24,161 bases of DNA from the IMG/VR virus record IMGVR_UViG_3300010300_000103, positions 1-24,161 of that record. One strand, written 5' to 3'. Both the position numbers and the translations under genes were made by a program. This document shows positions 1-24,161 of the stretch, in pieces. The stretch's first letter is position 1, and each line of letters starts with the position of its first letter. The notes beneath the pieces were generated by a model. The model saw only the letters and a list, made by a program, of their open reading frames with translations, was not told where the DNA came from and ran no database searches. This stretch comes from a virus.

Positions 1-51
1 GTCAAGGATAGGCGGGCGTTCCAAAAAATTATCACACACATGGAACGATGA
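1..51 (+). CDS. Possible 3' end of an upstream gene (partial)
   Basis: The first reading frame is open from the window edge and stops at TGA 49-51, giving a 16-residue tail ending in FQKIITHMER. A second frame is also open from the edge and runs to about position 110 across the start of the methyltransferase gene, so the frame assignment is not certain. The first is preferred because it ends before the next ribosome binding site and inside a terminator-like hairpin. No function can be read from so few residues. Confidence 0.25.
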   Translation, partial: VKDRRAFQKIITHMER

Positions 52-2016: not shown

Positions 2017-2337
2017 TTATTGGTTAATTGATTGTTTAATTAGTTCTTCAATAAAATCTATTCTCTTCCTTTGCTCTCTTCTAGCATCCTCAATTTTATT
2101 AATTTCTAATCCCATTTCATGCCTGAGTAGTCTTGCGTGACTATTCATGTTTTTCGAATAGGTTTTTACTACCATATAAAAATATAGGTTTTCTATATCT
2201 TTCTTTAACCATTTAATTTTTTCATTCATCTGCTGAATATTTTTGTGAATCTTCTTTTTTCCATATTCCAATTCTTCTGTTGTTAATTGTCTTTCTATAA
2301 TTGCTTTTTTCCACTCTTCATAATTTTGTAAGTTCAT
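2017..2337 (-). CDS. Hypothetical coiled-coil protein
   Basis: A 106-residue protein rich in Lys, Glu, Gln and Ile. It begins MNLQNYEEWKKAI and has long helical heptad-like stretches at about residues 28-55 and 75-105, with few Gly or Pro after the first third, so a coiled coil or helical hairpin is likely. No catalytic motif is visible and no function is assigned. The start has the leader AAAGGAAAAAACAATG, shared with its two neighbours. It is the middle gene of the small minus-strand unit 1843-2591. Confidence 0.7.
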   Translation of the reverse strand: MNLQNYEEWKKAIIERQLTTEELEYGKKKIHKNIQQMNEKIKWLKKDIENLYFYMVVKTYSKNMNSHARLLRHEMGLEINKIEDARREQRKRIDFIEELIKQSINQ

Positions 2338-2358
2338 TGTTTTTTCCTTTGGTTAGTT

Positions 2359-2376
2359 GGGGCTTTTTACGGCCCC
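2359..2376. other. GC-rich hairpin in an intergenic leader
   Basis: GGGGC (2359-2363) pairs with GCCCC (2372-2376) around 8 nt. It stands out in AT-rich surroundings between the 2397-2591 gene and the start of the 2017-2337 gene. No T-run follows on either strand, so it is not a standard terminator; it could stabilise or process the message. Confidence 0.35.
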
Positions 2377-2396
2377 ATGTTAGTTGTTAGTTGTTA

Positions 2397-2591
2397 TTAT
2401 TGTATTTTGAAATCTCTTTGTAATGCAGTTGGTGAAACGTTTTTTTCGTCGAGTCTGAAATTTCTGATTGTGTACCAAATTTCAATTCCTTCGTCCATTT
2501 TCCATTCTTCACGTTCTATAATCCACCATTCGTTTCCATATTCGTCGAAAAATGTTGTTCCTCTTTTCAAGTTTTTATAATCGATAGTCAT
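2397..2591 (-). CDS. Hypothetical 64-residue protein
   Basis: First gene of the minus-strand unit. The protein reads MTIDYKNLKRGTTFFDEYGNEWWII and is rich in Trp, Tyr and charged residues (EREEWKMDEGIEIWYTIRNF). The alternating pattern suggests a small beta-barrel or SH3-like fold, but this is inference. A promoter with TTTACA and TAGTAT lies just upstream, and the start has the leader AAAGGAAAAACAATG, one A shorter than in the two downstream genes. Function unknown. Confidence 0.65.
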   Translation of the reverse strand: MTIDYKNLKRGTTFFDEYGNEWWIIEREEWKMDEGIEIWYTIRNFRLDEKNVSPTALQRDFKIQ

Positions 2592-2625
2592 TGTTTTTCC
2601 TTTGGTTAGTTGGTTAGTAATTACA

Positions 2626-2654
2626 ATACTAATTTATTATTTTCAATCTGTAAA
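2626..2654 (-). promoter_or_regulatory. Promoter of the small minus-strand unit, with operator-like word
   Basis: On the minus strand TTTACA (2654-2649) and TAGTAT (2631-2626) are 17 bp apart, giving a start near 2619 and a leader of about 28 nt. The -35 is embedded in ATACTTTACAG (2658-2648), the same 11-mer found in the divergent region at 7258-7268, so both may be bound by one regulator. Confidence 0.5.
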
Positions 2655-2700
2655 GTATTATTTTACATAATTATGAAAAAAAGATAAAAAAAAATATCTT

Positions 2701-2906
2701 TTGGAACATTTGGATCATTGGATCATCGTTTTTCTATACATTTTATATATTATTAATAATTTCTTTTGTTTTTTTATGTTCCAATGTTCCAATTATATAA
2801 TTGGAAGAATAAATAACGATTGTCACGAATAGATTTGATTGATTTTTTGGAACATTTTTTGGATCATTTTGGATCTTGTTTTTGTTCCAATTGTCAAAAA
2901 TATGTA
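2701..2906. repeat. AT-rich gene-free segment with iteron-like repeats and palindrome
   Basis: No gene is seen from 2592 to 2949. GGAACATT followed by two GGATC words occurs at 2701-2724 and again, stretched by extra T, at 2847-2875. The inverse word GTTCCAAT occurs in tandem at 2778-2793 and once more at 2884-2891. TTCCAATTATATAATTGGAA (2787-2806) is a perfect 20-bp palindrome. A further ACTTTACA-type word (on the minus strand) lies near 2902-2912. Repeated short words in AT-rich DNA between divergent genes suit a replication origin or a multi-site operator; the sequence does not decide which. Confidence 0.5.
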
Positions 2907-2949
2907 AAGTGTAAACAAAATACGTTTTTTTTGATACATTGATCTTGTT

Positions 2950-3423
2950 ATGTCAAGGAATCACAAATTACTTATCATTAAAGATATGAACAAACATCAC
3001 GTCGAAATTGTATGTGATGAAAAAGTGTATCGTATAGCTATGCGATTCGGAAAACCTTGGATGATTTTTGACATCGCGAATCGAACCCATGTAAAGGTTC
3101 CAAAAAACTTTGATGTGTTATCATTGTTGAATTATGGAATTTTCAATCTAATTTTGGAAGGTGTTATGTCTGAAGAATCATCACAAAAATTTGTTTATAT
3201 TGTCCACACATTTCCGGATTCCTCAAAGATGAATTGGCATGCCGATTGTTTTGATTTCGTAGAATATACATATGGATATCCAATCCAATATGACAAAAAA
3301 CACGATATGTATTATATTCACACCGATGAAGAATTGGATATTTTGGAGCTCAACAATGACCATGGGATTGTGGCGATTCTGGAACCGGATGAAAATGGAA
3401 AAATTCAATTGGATGATGATTGA
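2950..3423 (+). CDS. Hypothetical protein of unknown function
   Basis: A 157-residue acidic protein starting MSRNHKLLIIKDMNKHHVEI and ending in a run of Asp. It alternates beta-like stretches (KFVYIVHTF, MYYIHTDEEL) with charged loops. I see no catalytic, metal-binding or membrane motif and recognise no family. No Shine-Dalgarno precedes the ATG at 2950; a later in-frame ATG at 2986 is no better supported, so the start is uncertain. Its last 19 bases overlap the end of the convergent HNH gene. It is the only + gene between the repeat-rich segment and the minus-strand replication cluster, so control from 2592-2949 is likely. Confidence 0.6.
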   Translation: MSRNHKLLIIKDMNKHHVEIVCDEKVYRIAMRFGKPWMIFDIANRTHVKVPKNFDVLSLLNYGIFNLILEGVMSEESSQKFVYIVHTFPDSSKMNWHADCFDFVEYTYGYPIQYDKKHDMYYIHTDEELDILELNNDHGIVAILEPDENGKIQLDDD

Positions 3424-4166
3424 GTATGAAATCGATGATGGCATGGTTCACACAATACCACCAAATCATCATCACGTTCACGTCCAAGCCTTTCATAACT
3501 GTTATGATGGACATTCAATGGTTTATCATTGGCACCACACAATTGACATTTAAAACCGGCTTTTTCTCTCATTCGACGCGCTGTTTGTTTCCAAGCATGT
3601 GAAGATATATAACTGGCATAATTCACCGGTGAATTCATTGGTGTTTTCGTCCATTGATTCATCCACACATCATGTTCTTTTCGTATTTTCAAAGCATCAC
3701 ACGATGAACACGTTTTTGATGGTTGTTCGTTTCTGGATCGAATGGTGGAAACAAATGTTCGATGGCATATTTCACAATTCATTTGAATCGGTAATGGTCC
3801 GGCGATCCCATAAATCCGTTCTTTGTTTACATCTATCAATTCACCAATCGATGTTGGTGACATGTCCGTTTTCCAATATAAGTATCGAATCAAATCGGTC
3901 CGGTCATCTTCATCAGAGTCTACAATAAAATCAGCGATGGAAGAATCAAGCCGTTTTTTCGATTCCTCCATCAGTAGATTCGTATATTCCAATTGGTGTT
4001 TGGCCATCTCTATCAATTCCAAAAGATTGGTGATTTGATAGCGCAATTCGGAAATATTGTTTTTTTGCATTTCACGATATGGTTGAAATAAATCTTCACA
4101 ATCGCATGGATCCGCGAAACATATTTCACATGGTGTATCTTGTTTTTTTTCGGTGTTTTTGTCCAT
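3405..4166 (-). CDS. HNH endonuclease with extra zinc-binding and HTH-like modules
   Basis: A 253-residue predicted DNA endonuclease. The HNH domain at about residues 204-248 has a zinc pair C207/C210 and C239/C242, the catalytic-type HH at 220-221, Y224, LGRE (227-230), DLVVLCEPCHHRFH and a final His at 247. Upstream are a Cys cluster (C13, C16, C21, C23), a helical stretch (35-80), an HTH-like segment (about 88-124) and a second zinc knuckle (C131, C134, C153, C156). HNH enzymes in phages act in packaging, recombination or as mobile nicking enzymes; the context, last in the replication cluster, does not decide. The ATG at 4166 is preferred over the TTG before it; GGATGA supplies a weak ribosome binding site. 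The 3' end overlaps the + gene by 19 bases. Confidence 0.85.
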   Translation of the reverse strand: MDKNTEKKQDTPCEICFADPCDCEDLFQPYREMQKNNISELRYQITNLLELIEMAKHQLEYTNLLMEESKKRLDSSIADFIVDSDEDDRTDLIRYLYWKTDMSPTSIGELIDVNKERIYGIAGPLPIQMNCEICHRTFVSTIRSRNEQPSKTCSSCDALKIRKEHDVWMNQWTKTPMNSPVNYASYISSHAWKQTARRMREKAGFKCQLCGANDKPLNVHHNSYERLGRERDDDLVVLCEPCHHRFHTQSSSN

Positions 4167-4208: not shown

Positions 4209-5516
4209 TCATACATTTTTGGATTGATCATTATATCGATAACATCGAACACGTTTTCCATTGGGCATATTTGCCATATATGGTTGATATCCTAGTTTTT
4301 TCAAACAGAATTCAATTCTGGATCGTGTTCCACTGGTTCGGTTTTGCATGGGTACCTCCAAAAGATTCATCGCCAAGTTGAAATCCACAACGTCAACGCG
4401 TCCACGCTTCAAAAAAAGCGGTTTGGTAAATTCACCGCTTTCCAGCTTATCCAACCACGGATCGATGGTGGAAAAAATATCGGCTTCATCCATTCGCAGT
4501 TGTTCCTCTTCATCCGTCAACCAATGTTGTTCATCTTCCATCATATAATGTATGGCTTCAGCCCAAATTTGAGGAACTACTTTTGAAAAACTATCACGAT
4601 CAAATCGTTCATCCATTGTTTCACCGACTTGAACACACCAAAAACGCGTTGAACCGGTGGAATCGGTCAATAAATCCATTCTATTGGAAGTCACAACCAT
4701 TATTCCTTGTCTTGGAAGTGTTACGGCGTTTCGTGCGTATGGAACTTTTACCGTATCCGAAGCCGATGATATGAACGCTTTTTCGATTTCCGCATCTTTG
4801 GATCTTCCAGCCCACTCCGCTAATTCATATATAAATTTTCCTTGCAATTTCAAAGCCGCGTATTCGTGATTCATGTTGAATTTGGTATCCGCGAACCATT
4901 CTTGATTTCCACACAATGTTTTCAAAAACATCGATTTTCCAAAATTTTGTTGACCGGTCAAAACCAAAATGGATTTGATATATACCGGGTCTTTTGATGA
5001 AGCATGAAACAATCTTTTCACGGCTCCAATCAACCATCGTTTGGAATATGCACGATGTAATTCTGAATCAGATACACCGCACCAATCAATCAACATTGTT
5101 TCCAATCGTTTTTCACCATCCCATTCCAATGTTTTCATCCATTCGCGAACCGGATGATATCTGTTTTCTCTAGCGATGAAAATGATGGCTTCGTGTAACA
5201 TCTTCATGTTCACACGTAATTGATACACACGTGATAACCAATCCGCCAACCATACCTCGTCCGTATCCGATAATATTTCACTATCTGAATAGTATTGGTC
5301 CGGAAATTTGACGTGAACCTGCTGTGTAAATTCATTCAATCGAATCGCGTTTTCCAATCTGGAATCAAAGCGTAATACACGAATGATATTTTCCAAATAT
5401 GGAAATGGTTCCCCTTCAATCATTTGGTTTCCAACAATCTTTGTTCGGCGTTCCAATGGAATGTTTTCCGGTTGTAGTTGTTTTTTCAAGTTTTGTAAAT
5501 CTTCTATGTTCATCAT
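4209..5516 (-). CDS. VapE-like SF3 replicative helicase
   Basis: A 435-residue ATPase of the virulence-associated protein E type, which in phages and mobile elements acts as a replicative helicase partner of a primase. Walker A is GQQNFGKS (188-195). A Walker B-like FIYELAEW is at 228-235 with acidic E231 and E234, motif C-like GIMVVTSN at 271-278, and an arginine-finger-like STGSTRFWCV at 287-296. HPVREWMKTLEWDG (121-134), just before the ATPase core, is characteristic of the family as I remember it. AAGGA lies about 6 nt before the first of two ATG codons at 5516. It starts 11 bases after the end of the primase gene, a classic primase-helicase pairing in one operon. Length fits the family. 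Confidence 0.88.
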   Translation of the reverse strand: MMNIEDLQNLKKQLQPENIPLERRTKIVGNQMIEGEPFPYLENIIRVLRFDSRLENAIRLNEFTQQVHVKFPDQYYSDSEILSDTDEVWLADWLSRVYQLRVNMKMLHEAIIFIARENRYHPVREWMKTLEWDGEKRLETMLIDWCGVSDSELHRAYSKRWLIGAVKRLFHASSKDPVYIKSILVLTGQQNFGKSMFLKTLCGNQEWFADTKFNMNHEYAALKLQGKFIYELAEWAGRSKDAEIEKAFISSASDTVKVPYARNAVTLPRQGIMVVTSNRMDLLTDSTGSTRFWCVQVGETMDERFDRDSFSKVVPQIWAEAIHYMMEDEQHWLTDEEEQLRMDEADIFSTIDPWLDKLESGEFTKPLFLKRGRVDVVDFNLAMNLLEVPMQNRTSGTRSRIEFCLKKLGYQPYMANMPNGKRVRCYRYNDQSKNV

Positions 5517-5527
5517 ATGTTTCCTTT

Positions 5528-6400
5528 TTAGTCGATATTATTGTATTTTGATAAATTGTATAATGATATTGATTTTCCACACGAATTTCGATGTCCACAA
5601 ATCGCCGCTGGTGATTGGATTGGCGCGTAATAAAAATACATCGATGGACGATTGCAAAATGGACACGGTATTTTTTCAAAACGATCACCACGATCCACAC
5701 CAACCAATCGAGACGATAACCAACGTCTTGAATGTTCATCGGTGTTATATTGTTCGATGATTTGTTGAATGATGGATCCACGTCCGTAGTATTTTACACT
5801 ACTTGAATCAAATGTTGGTGATGGATTTGATTTCACAATGGTTTTTTGTTCTGGAATGTGTGAATAATCCAAATCTAACCATGGCCATTCCTTCGCTGGT
5901 TGAAAATATGAATCTTTTGGTGATTGTGGTTTGTGCGCTGGCATGTAATATATTCTTGATGGATCTTTACATTGTTGGTCCGGTCCGGTTTCCAATCCGG
6001 TTTTTTCAGTCCAAAATTCCATCGCCGCAATCCACGCACGATTCCAATCTACCGCCGGAATTGGTTTTTCAAGCGGAAAAACGATCCTCCACTTGTGTTT
6101 TTCCCAAGTATGCGAAAAGCTAGTATAAAAATAGTATTTCGTACCCCAAAAACACATATTTTTTCCAACGGATGTTCCATCGTCAATGTCAAAAACCAAC
6201 ATCGTAATTTCTTTGACATTCTTTTTTGATCTTGGACCATTCATGACAGCTGGACAAAAAGCCGCACCATTTTTTTCATCACGAATTCTAAACTTCAAAA
6301 AATCACTATCCATTTTGTGTTGTGGTAGCGATACCGAAACACCTTTTTTATCGAAATGATTGCGATACATATGAAAATGTATTATCTTATCTTTATACAT
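5528..6400 (-). CDS. Archaeo-eukaryotic-type (AEP) DNA primase with C-terminal zinc finger
   Basis: A 290-residue putative primase or primase-polymerase. The metal-binding motif is FDIDDG (70-75, D71/D73/D74). The second motif is SFSHT (94-98), followed by KHKWRIVFPL (101-110), and the third region includes DPSRIYYMP (146-154). This order matches phage and plasmid AEP enzymes. A Cys4 zinc finger (C246, C249, C268, C274) ends the protein and probably helps template binding. The ATG at 6400 is chosen because AAGGAG lies 6 nt upstream; an in-frame ATG at 6427 has no such site. It lies between RusA and the VapE-like helicase, with which it would synthesise primers and unwind DNA. Primase versus primase-polymerase activity cannot be told from sequence. 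Confidence 0.82.
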   Translation of the reverse strand: MYKDKIIHFHMYRNHFDKKGVSVSLPQHKMDSDFLKFRIRDEKNGAAFCPAVMNGPRSKKNVKEITMLVFDIDDGTSVGKNMCFWGTKYYFYTSFSHTWEKHKWRIVFPLEKPIPAVDWNRAWIAAMEFWTEKTGLETGPDQQCKDPSRIYYMPAHKPQSPKDSYFQPAKEWPWLDLDYSHIPEQKTIVKSNPSPTFDSSSVKYYGRGSIIQQIIEQYNTDEHSRRWLSSRLVGVDRGDRFEKIPCPFCNRPSMYFYYAPIQSPAAICGHRNSCGKSISLYNLSKYNNID

Positions 6401-6454
6401 TGTTTTCTCCTTGTATATTTGACTCATTGTTTTTGTTAGTTAGTTTGACTTCGA

Positions 6455-14106: not shown

Positions 14107-16326
14107 TTAATACCTACCGGACGCGCGTTTTGTTCCAAATCTTCCACGTTTTTCACCGGCCGATATGAAACGATCAAAATGTTTGAATGGTTGTATGACT
14201 ACCACTTTTTGTTGTGGTGCGTTTTGTAATTCTCTCAATCCTTGTTCGCCACCAAGCCGTTGAACCGTGGCACGATCCAAAACGGCTTCACCGGTTAATA
14301 ATTGCGCTTGTGTTTGGTCCGGTGCCAATGGATCCGACTGTCCAACCATACCACCAACATCGAATTTTGGTGGTGGTTGTGATTGTACCGCCGCCAATTC
14401 CAATCCAGCTTTTCCAGCCGCCAACGCCGCAATTCCAACCGAAGCCGGAAAAGGATAATCAGCGAACGCGCGCGCCGATGATTGGGCCATATCGATCAGT
14501 ATTCCAGCCACCGCCGCCGATTGTTTCATTCGAAATGATTTCATCATTTGTTTTTCGATGGTTTGTTGATATGCCTTTTCAATGTCTGTTCGTTGACGTG
14601 CTGATTCTTCCGAACTAATAACACCGGCTTTTTCCATCTTTTCAATGTTTTGGATGGCTTCATCGCGATTTCGAACATATTGTTCTATTGCATTATCTTG
14701 GATTTGTAAAAATGCCGATGATATTCCACTTACCAAATTCATCGCTTCATCGATCATTTGTTGGTTCATCGCTTTTCGTTCTTCAATGATTTCATCGATG
14801 GCCGCTTTTTCCAAATCTACCAAATCATCTTGTAATTTCTGTTCACTGAAATATCGCGCTTGATTCCCTTGTTCGTACATATTGACGATTTGATCACGCA
14901 TTTCGATACGTCGAGCCATATAATCATCTTCGGATATTTCACCGGCTTCCAACGCTTTTTCCAAATCCGTGGTTCGTTGTTGATATGCTTGTTGTTGTGC
15001 ATATTGGATTTCTTTGATTCTTTCCAATCTATCTTCGTGTGCTTTTCTTAATTTATCTTCATCAGATAATTCACCTTTGTATAATTCCATCGACATATCA
15101 AACAATGATGATTGGGCGTCAAAAATATCACCAAGTACATCCAAATCATTATTTCGTATTTCAATCAGTTTTTCCAATGCTTTGGTTTCTTCTTTGATTT
15201 CCTCGATTTGTGGTTTTCTGGATGGTGTCTTGATTGGCTTTTCACTATCCGAACGGATTTTCATTCGTGCTTGATGTAGTTTTTCAATTTCTTTTTCAGC
15301 TTCGGAAAATGCATTAAAAGCGGTGTCAACATTTTCGAAAGCCGCGTTGAATCCTTCTTTGATGGCGTTGGCGGCCATCACAACATCACCGGACAAAAGA
15401 TGTTGCATAGCGACCAAATGACCGTTCACAATTGATATTTGAACCGACATGCCATTGAACGCCGCAACAAATGCCGCTTTGGTATATATGATTCCGGATG
15501 TTATCGAATCAATCGCCGATGATATTCCAGCGGTTCCGGTCATTGTCATAAGAATTTCTTGCATGGCTCCGGTTCCAACTGCACCCAAATCAGCCATCGC
15601 GCGTTGGAAATCGGCGGCTTGTTTTACGGCTTCCGGTCCAACATCTAATCCAAATTCTCTACCCAATGAAATGAATTCATCCATAGCACCAACCGCGCCG
15701 GACTGCGCAAATATAGCGCCGGATTCACCAAACATTTTCATCAATAACGCGTTTCGTTCCAAATCACTATCCATTTCACCAAGTGATTTCATCATGTCTC
15801 GAAAAACATCATCGGCGTTTCGCAAATCTCCATTGGTTTCATTGACTTGAACACCCATTTTTTCGAACAAATCTATCGCGTTTTTATTTTCGTTATTGGC
15901 TTCCACCATAAAGAATTGAAGTTTTTGGAGGGGTCCAATAAACTGTTCGAACGCCAATCCACTTCCTTCGGCGGCGATTTTCAATCCTTGTAATGTTTCG
16001 GCGGCGATTCCGGTTTTGGTGGATGTGTCCACCAAATCATTGGTGGCATCGGCTACACGTTGACCAAATTCCAACATCGCATATCCAGCGCCGGCAATCG
16101 CAACACCGGCCATCGAAGCGGATTTGGACATATTCGAAAACTTTTCTTTGAATGATTTGGATGTTTTATCGGCGGCGCGTTCGGCTTTTTTCAACTCTTT
16201 TTCAACTTCGTTGATTGCCTGTTTCATCTGTTTTTCAGTGATTCCGGGAATACGTTTCAACGCACGTTCCAACGCGCCGATATTCGCCGTGTAACTGATT
16301 TCGATGGTTTTATTCACGTCCGCCAT
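14107..16326 (-). CDS. Tail tape measure protein
   Basis: A 739-residue protein that sets tail length during assembly. The N-terminus (VNKTIEISYTANIGALERAL) leads to a helical region (about 30-70), a hydrophobic Ala/Gly segment near 72-90, then TKTGIAAETLQGLKIAAEGSG, typical of phage tape measure proteins. A long charged coiled-coil region (about 330-600) is followed by a hydrophobic stretch and the C-terminal FDVGG ... LLTGEAVLDR ... RLGGEQGL pattern seen in this family. The start shares TAATG with the previous stop, and AAGGA is 7 nt upstream. At the usual rise of about 0.15 nm per residue, the tail would be roughly 110 nm, an inference only. Confidence 0.92.
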   Translation of the reverse strand: MADVNKTIEISYTANIGALERALKRIPGITEKQMKQAINEVEKELKKAERAADKTSKSFKEKFSNMSKSASMAGVAIAGAGYAMLEFGQRVADATNDLVDTSTKTGIAAETLQGLKIAAEGSGLAFEQFIGPLQKLQFFMVEANNENKNAIDLFEKMGVQVNETNGDLRNADDVFRDMMKSLGEMDSDLERNALLMKMFGESGAIFAQSGAVGAMDEFISLGREFGLDVGPEAVKQAADFQRAMADLGAVGTGAMQEILMTMTGTAGISSAIDSITSGIIYTKAAFVAAFNGMSVQISIVNGHLVAMQHLLSGDVVMAANAIKEGFNAAFENVDTAFNAFSEAEKEIEKLHQARMKIRSDSEKPIKTPSRKPQIEEIKEETKALEKLIEIRNNDLDVLGDIFDAQSSLFDMSMELYKGELSDEDKLRKAHEDRLERIKEIQYAQQQAYQQRTTDLEKALEAGEISEDDYMARRIEMRDQIVNMYEQGNQARYFSEQKLQDDLVDLEKAAIDEIIEERKAMNQQMIDEAMNLVSGISSAFLQIQDNAIEQYVRNRDEAIQNIEKMEKAGVISSEESARQRTDIEKAYQQTIEKQMMKSFRMKQSAAVAGILIDMAQSSARAFADYPFPASVGIAALAAGKAGLELAAVQSQPPPKFDVGGMVGQSDPLAPDQTQAQLLTGEAVLDRATVQRLGGEQGLRELQNAPQQKVVVIQPFKHFDRFISAGEKRGRFGTKRASGRY

Positions 16327-24003: not shown

Positions 24004-24037
24004 AAAAACCACTGATATCACACGGTGGTTTTTTTTT
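24004..24037 (+). terminator. Strong intrinsic terminator after the fibre gene
   Basis: AAAAACCAC (24004-24012) pairs with GTGGTTTTT (24025-24033) around 12 nt, with the T-run continuing to 24037. It ends the + fibre unit and shields the DnaA-box array behind it from transcription. Confidence 0.8.
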
Positions 24038-24040
24038 ACC

Positions 24041-24161
24041 TGTGGATAACCCTGTGGATAACTTATATAACCCTGTGGATAACCCTGTGGATAACCCTGT
24101 GGATAACTTATATAACCCTGTGGATAACCCTGTGGATAACTTATATAACCCTGTGGATAAC
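24041..24161 (+). repeat. Array of perfect DnaA boxes, candidate replication origin
   Basis: TGTGGATAA, the complement of the consensus DnaA box TTATCCACA, occurs eight times in one orientation, starting at 24041, 24053, 24074, 24086, 24098, 24119, 24131 and 24152. Spacings are 12 or 21 bp. The longer spacings hold the palindromic AT word TTATATAA. The array runs to the window edge and may continue. A DnaA-dependent origin or a DnaA-titrating site are the main readings. Confidence 0.8.

Follow-up and report, generated by a model that had tools for sequence, protein, structure and literature searches.

A phased array of DnaA boxes in an aquatic phage family as a candidate sink for host DnaA

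Known clusters of DnaA boxes

Proteins are the known means by which phages halt host replication. DnaA boxes in clusters have been described for oriC, plasmid origins, datA and phage T5. Both oriC and many plasmid origins are built around arrays of boxes, and in the plasmid origins Rep is helped by host DnaA (PMC4980987). Phased boxes permit cooperative loading in origins of both types; a gap of 3 bp, i.e. a 12-bp step, is the R4-C1 spacing of cooperative DnaA loading in oriC of E. coli (PMC4451416). Outside the origin, clustered boxes are found in E. coli in datA, in DnaA-titrating loci and on plasmids with extra boxes, and additional copies titrate DnaA and postpone initiation (PMC5835720, PMC12371093); the plasmids raise the initiation mass (PMC5835720). 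For phages, DnaA boxes have been reported in the injection stop signal of T5 (PMC13250531); one exact copy and three with one mismatch were detected there in the T5 record. Origin calls of the Ori-Finder type with DnaA boxes have been published for a phage (PMC11512268). The nearest published idea concerns the CtrA-site clusters of alphaproteobacterial phages, which are also phage clusters of sites for a host cell-cycle regulator; that regulator is another host protein, and asymmetry of DnaA sites was sought in those phages and none was found (PMC9437464). DnaA-box arrays as phage decoys, or dense, phased arrays relocating across a phage family, were not found in the literature searched, in which subscription journals were thinly covered and older work may exist.

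In datA, two consensus boxes are accompanied by weaker ones and an IHF site, and its action is mostly through hydrolysis of DnaA-ATP; the array described here, which is carried by a virus, has as many as ten consensus boxes, all pointing the same way and at phased steps. With oriC and DnaA-assisted plasmid origins it has the phasing and the 3-bp gaps in common, but no conserved unwinding element is apparent alongside, its position is variable, and it is missing in a complete close relative. The lytic phage T5 likewise has DnaA boxes in noncoding DNA (PMC13250531), but there they occur among other repeats and palindromes in the terminal repeat region, whereas the present array is dense, regular and part of the late region. 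The clusters of the T7-like phages phiEap-1, VB_Ship_A7 and nasanit comprise five to eight boxes with many steps of 11-12 and 21-23 bp, likewise in noncoding DNA of phages with their own replication genes; these phages are unrelated, and the steps are less regular.

The array, its limits and its surroundings

The window, i.e. the whole stretch of 24,161 nt that was analysed, is an entire IMG/VR contig. A scan for the exact motif detected TGTGGATAA eight times on the plus strand (starts at 24041, 24053, 24074, 24086, 24098, 24119, 24131 and 24152), in a single orientation and with steps of 12, 21, 12, 12, 21, 12 and 21 bp; number, orientation and the two step lengths agree with the preliminary description. 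All eight copies fall within the final 123 bases, and the rest of the window contains none. If one mismatch is allowed, 25 matches are present in the window, compared to a mean of 10.6 and a maximum of 18 in shuffled sequences. The repeat unit CCTGTGGATAAC is 12 bp long, and the longer steps add TTATATAAC (9 bp). The spacer word TTATATAA, said to occur in each longer step, was indeed present in all three 21-bp steps (Table 1); in relatives it is swapped for TTATAAAAG, TTATTTGAG or GGTGTTGATAAG-type words.

The contig breaks off inside the array, which had been described as running off the edge. By a pattern scan of viral contigs a second record of the same virus was located, IMGVR_UViG_3300007539_000182 (G001; 25,627 bp, 99.985% identical to the window over 20,457 bp). 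It continues to ten perfect boxes in 153 bp, an array of about 155 bp, and then into unique sequence, providing the extension past the window that had been called for. Since G001 reads through the ten boxes into unique DNA, the array is bounded, neither a collapsed nor an unbounded repeat. An assembly artefact, the concern raised beforehand, is ruled out by the unique DNA on both sides in this second record. A coding repeat was considered as well: the 12- and 21-bp steps of the window leave a frame open (ORF VDNPVDNLYN), but the 20-bp steps of relatives break it. Clustering of matches to TTWTNCACA, as in the G001 array, exceeds chance; clusters of at least four such boxes were obtained in none of 640 first-order Markov (dinucleotide-based) shuffled genomes of the phage family.

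Table 1. Features of the window in relation to the DnaA-box array
Feature	Position	Strand	Remarks
DnaA-box array	24039..24161	+	eight perfect TGTGGATAA (TTATCCACA on the other strand); ten boxes in G001
TTATATAA spacer word	24063..24070; also 24108-24115 and 24141-24148	.	one per 21-bp step
Intrinsic terminator	24004..24037	+	11-bp stem AAAAACCACTGATATCACACGGTGGTTTTT, then T run; between fibre gene and array
Fibre/decoration-like gene, 605 aa	22145..23962	+	3' end towards array; convergent with 74-aa gene (G001)
VapE-like (PF05272) helicase	4209..5516	-	replicative helicase candidate of the phage; not adjacent to array
Primase-like protein	5528..6427	-	weak PHROG DNA primase matches
GTCAAGGATA	1..10	.	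genome end; its reverse complement starts G001; probable 10-nt cohesive end

In the usual left-to-right phage orientation, the order in G001 is genome end, terminase small subunit, terminase large subunit, portal, scaffold-like gene, four small genes, array, terminator, fibre-like gene (opposite strand), major capsid, tail genes, tape measure, lysis-like genes, exonuclease, HTH, RusA, primase, VapE-like helicase and HNH, with the major capsid named by a PHROG match to major head protein and the portal, scaffold and terminase small subunit named from position and weak or no family matches. Box 1 starts two bases past the stop codon of the 74-aa gene, and an 11-bp hairpin terminator follows the last box, so that the array is placed between that stop codon and the terminator, beyond which the convergent fibre-like gene lies. 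The terminator, noted before as preceding the array in the window, is real; its left side is A-rich and it is possibly bidirectional. The helicase and primase candidates are about 18 kb away from the array.

Occurrence and position in the phage family

A search with the terminase yielded about 17 relatives, most of them with 93-97% amino-acid identity. At the same junction, nine boxes (20/12/12 steps) are found in L120 and six (12/20 steps) in L124, while eight other close relatives have no boxes there, and a terminator or a short piece of unrelated DNA comes after the stop codon instead. The relatives without the array keep the same gene order. In G015 (29,386 bp), the whole genome was scanned and no box cluster was detected anywhere; it begins and ends with the same ten bases, as would a complete linear genome of the cohesive-end type. 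In a terminase tree, which is only a guide since its outgroup branch is very long and recombination is possible, the three carriers do not form one clade (AU p 3e-6). Whether a close relative has the array is thus a labile trait.

The boxes themselves are constant. In three close carriers 25 out of 25 are identical, while the spacers differ (TTATATAAG, TTATAAAAG, TTATTTGAG). A scan for the syntax of 12- and 20-21-bp steps revealed further carriers, distant members of the same phage family of 28-30 kb, with 43-59% identity in the terminase and, in most, 26-28% in the 1,100-aa protein; all family relatives are metagenomic. About 100 boxes from 14 arrays were tallied with a mismatch allowed anywhere. 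Position 5 was C80/A12/T8, all other positions were at least 97% constant, and it is position 5 that is the free base of the DnaA consensus TTWTNCACA (PMC5835720). The steps measured 11-12 or 20-21 bp in 69 of 79 cases, close to a single or a double turn of the helix. The 21-bp spacer of several distant members includes TGTTGATAA, a box in reverse orientation with one mismatch, and for this reason the real pitch may be about 10.5 bp throughout. That the array consists of DnaA boxes, as the preliminary description had proposed from the consensus, is thus well supported by sequence comparison, and the exact motif, the conserved box, the free base and the phasing together strongly suggest binding of DnaA.

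The same data bear on a neutral origin of the array. A tandem repeat grown by slippage from one chance box would have nearly identical units within each array, as observed, and might come and go between close relatives as these arrays do. It would not account for spacers that diverge between arrays while the nine-base box does not, nor for finding this box with these steps again elsewhere in the family and in further phages, and shuffled genomes produced no clusters. We consider it quite improbable.

The position of the array is not fixed. It is located near helicase-primase genes in G008, G010, G012, G013 and G025, beside another small gene in G009, G011 and G037, and just upstream of the major capsid gene in G023, G031, G044 and G047, in most of the last group with a promoter-like TATAAT alongside. 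At least four intergenic locations are used in the family, and the orientation of the boxes relative to neighbouring genes varies. To estimate prevalence, carriers found via the array were excluded, and in a modest sample of 24 fetched records picked by terminase or capsid alone, at least four boxes within 160 bp were present in six, all of them among the 20 more distant ones.

Some of these sites would allow regulation of phage genes, either by a DnaA-bound array halting transcription between convergent late genes or by tying expression to the host cell cycle. The location between stop codon and terminator of a convergent pair in the window virus and the location just before the capsid gene would be suited to such a role, which has been proposed for clustered CtrA sites in alphaproteobacterial phages (PMC9437464). 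A terminator is already there, however, array-free relatives have the same gene order, and the orientation of the boxes to the neighbouring gene is inconstant (G008 versus G012). A regulatory site or roadblock is therefore regarded as improbable.

More weight has to be given to the main alternative, an origin of replication, of which the array could be the whole or a part: host DnaA would bind the boxes and open AT-rich DNA alongside, and a phage or host helicase would be loaded. Arrays of boxes are the core of known origins, as outlined above, origin calls with such boxes have a precedent in a phage, and in five genomes the array is close to helicase-primase genes. Spacers and flanks are AT-rich; most arrays have an AT-rich flank on one or both sides, terminators and promoters being included in these flanks, and the right 50-bp flank in G001 is among the most AT-rich of that genome. 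The AT-rich spacer, however, is not conserved (GGTGTTGATAAG, GGCTATCTGAG in others). From an origin one would expect resistance to loss, a tie to the replication genes and a switch in strand composition. The array is missing from the complete close relative G015, and its position varies among family members. Replication modules are swapped between close relatives: window positions 4209-6427 encode the VapE-like helicase and the primase, whereas G014 (L193; 3936-5377) and G015 (2306-3747) have an HTH_36-like 177-aa protein and a 298-aa unknown. Carriers at the same site differ in the module, with the VapE-like helicase in one and the HTH_36 type without that helicase in another; the array thus occurs with two unrelated modules and is not linked to either. 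Conversely, G014 carries the array and G015 does not, although both have the same module. The check for a GC-skew switch called for in the preliminary description gave no array-specific signal: a dip beside the array tracks the reversed fibre genes, and genomes that lack the array show it equally. Because of the absence from G015, the two unrelated modules, the contrast of G014 and G015, and the lack of a skew switch of its own, we consider an origin doubtful. Between origin and titration, which had been left open, the evidence leans against a fixed origin; were it an origin nonetheless, this phage family would be shifting DnaA-dependent origins around its genome.

The best bacterial match of the terminase reached 46% (Rhodospirillaceae MAG SP205), and a prophage search for the host gave no close bacterial match. 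The four-box pattern with 12- and 20-21-bp steps was found in none of 399 Pseudomonadota genomes, which also speaks against an origin, and a looser three-box pattern in two of 289 genomes from the class of the best bacterial match. The array is therefore not a copy of a common oriC in that phylum, and descent from the host's oriC is weakened as an explanation, with the reservation that the genomes compared may not include the host's.

Clusters in other replicons and a possible sink for DnaA

BLAST searches of GenBank phages revealed clusters of boxes in lactococcal 949-like and in T7-like phages. The density and regularity that had been called unusual for phage DNA are so, but the occurrence of box clusters is not, since they are found in many unrelated phages. 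The Enterobacter phage phiEap-1 (L178, L334) has a 195-bp direct terminal repeat, identical at both ends, with five perfect boxes per copy. VB_Ship_A7, nasanit and P483 have similar clusters close to a genome end or to a terminase-early junction, for the first two at record starts or such junctions.

Boxes in the phiEap-1 terminal repeat and in the T5 injection stop signal (PMC13250531) raise the question of a pause signal for DNA entry, and the array is 5.1 kb from the terminase-side genome end. Its position varies widely in the family, however, and many members are without it; the complete relative G015 has a terminal repeat of only 10 nt, and no fixed place for a first-step transfer is apparent. 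Such a signal appears highly improbable.

The explanation favoured here, with a probability of slightly below one half, is a cooperative high-affinity array for host DnaA acting as a sink. Boxes of the same orientation on nearly the same helix face would let DnaA molecules line up in a row. Each new copy of the phage genome would add ten boxes, and free DnaA would be drawn to them in competition with the host origin and the dnaA promoter. Fewer new rounds of host replication could then leave nucleotides and replisome parts to a phage with its own helicase and primase, which would be the benefit of DnaA sequestration. A sink tolerates loss and movement because it needs only copies and affinity, and the varied sites, the unfixed orientation and the carriers outside one clade fit a position-independent site acting in trans. 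Position independence and dispensability, as of datA-like loci, were seen by comparison only, in the number of family sites and in G015. Against a sink stand the minority of terminase-chosen relatives with a cluster (6/24) and the subgroup with the array beside helicase-primase genes, the place expected for an origin; the helical phasing also suits an origin. To be effective, a sink would need a product of copy number and boxes on the scale of the DnaA pool.

T7-like phages make their own RNA polymerase, and the model phage T7 is not known to need DnaA for replication; a sink fits such carriers. It is possible, and put forward tentatively, that the arrays are recurrently acquired 'DnaA sponges', noncoding and protein-free, gained separately by unrelated lytic phages to switch off host initiation via competition for sites, with the present aquatic family and T7-like, T5-like and lactococcal 949-like phages as carriers. 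If true, a short noncoding array, easily gained and lost, would permit host takeover without a protein, and scattered DnaA boxes in phages not needing DnaA would be accounted for. It would also offer a natural test of the initiator-titration model, since a phage would add hundreds of sites within minutes.

Other layouts of boxes were encountered in these searches. BLAST of the array against plasmids gave a single match, a 6.5-kb plasmid of Formicincola oecophyllae (NZ_CP038232.1; L182), with nine perfect TTATCCACA at alternating 22- and 23-bp steps in a stretch without listed genes, probably the plasmid origin. Separate viral contigs (L059, L010, L015, L023, L035, L039, L050, L068, L081, L083) contain five boxes with steps of 12/21/12/12 or 11/22/12/12 and, after them, direct repeats of AGATCTAAGACT; such boxes beside iterons resemble the layout of an origin.

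Several further features of the phage family were observed. GTCAACAATA is present at both start and end of G015, and in several relatives the contig breaks off some 66 bp ahead of the terminase small subunit. The pattern resembles that of a conserved cos site leaving a cohesive end of 10 nt, and the window virus would then have a genome of close to 29.3 kb. Window positions 2620-2949 are an AT-rich noncoding stretch flanked by divergent genes, in which TTGGAACAT/TTGGATCAT words recur in either orientation and around which the GC content of the kilobase is about 27%, a candidate for a phage origin or control region independent of DnaA. The small cargo genes that separate the 74-aa gene from the fibre gene vary in number and content between relatives, and a near-identical sequence resembling a cassette leader precedes each of them (CATTGTTTTTTCCTTTGGTTGATTGGTTA, reverse strand; L117/G018 5259-6074, L124 5436-6300, window 1999 and 2589). 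About 70 bp are shared by the tape-measure ORF and the 1,102-aa ORF (window 14107-14177); the latter starts with TTG, and its true start is probably downstream.
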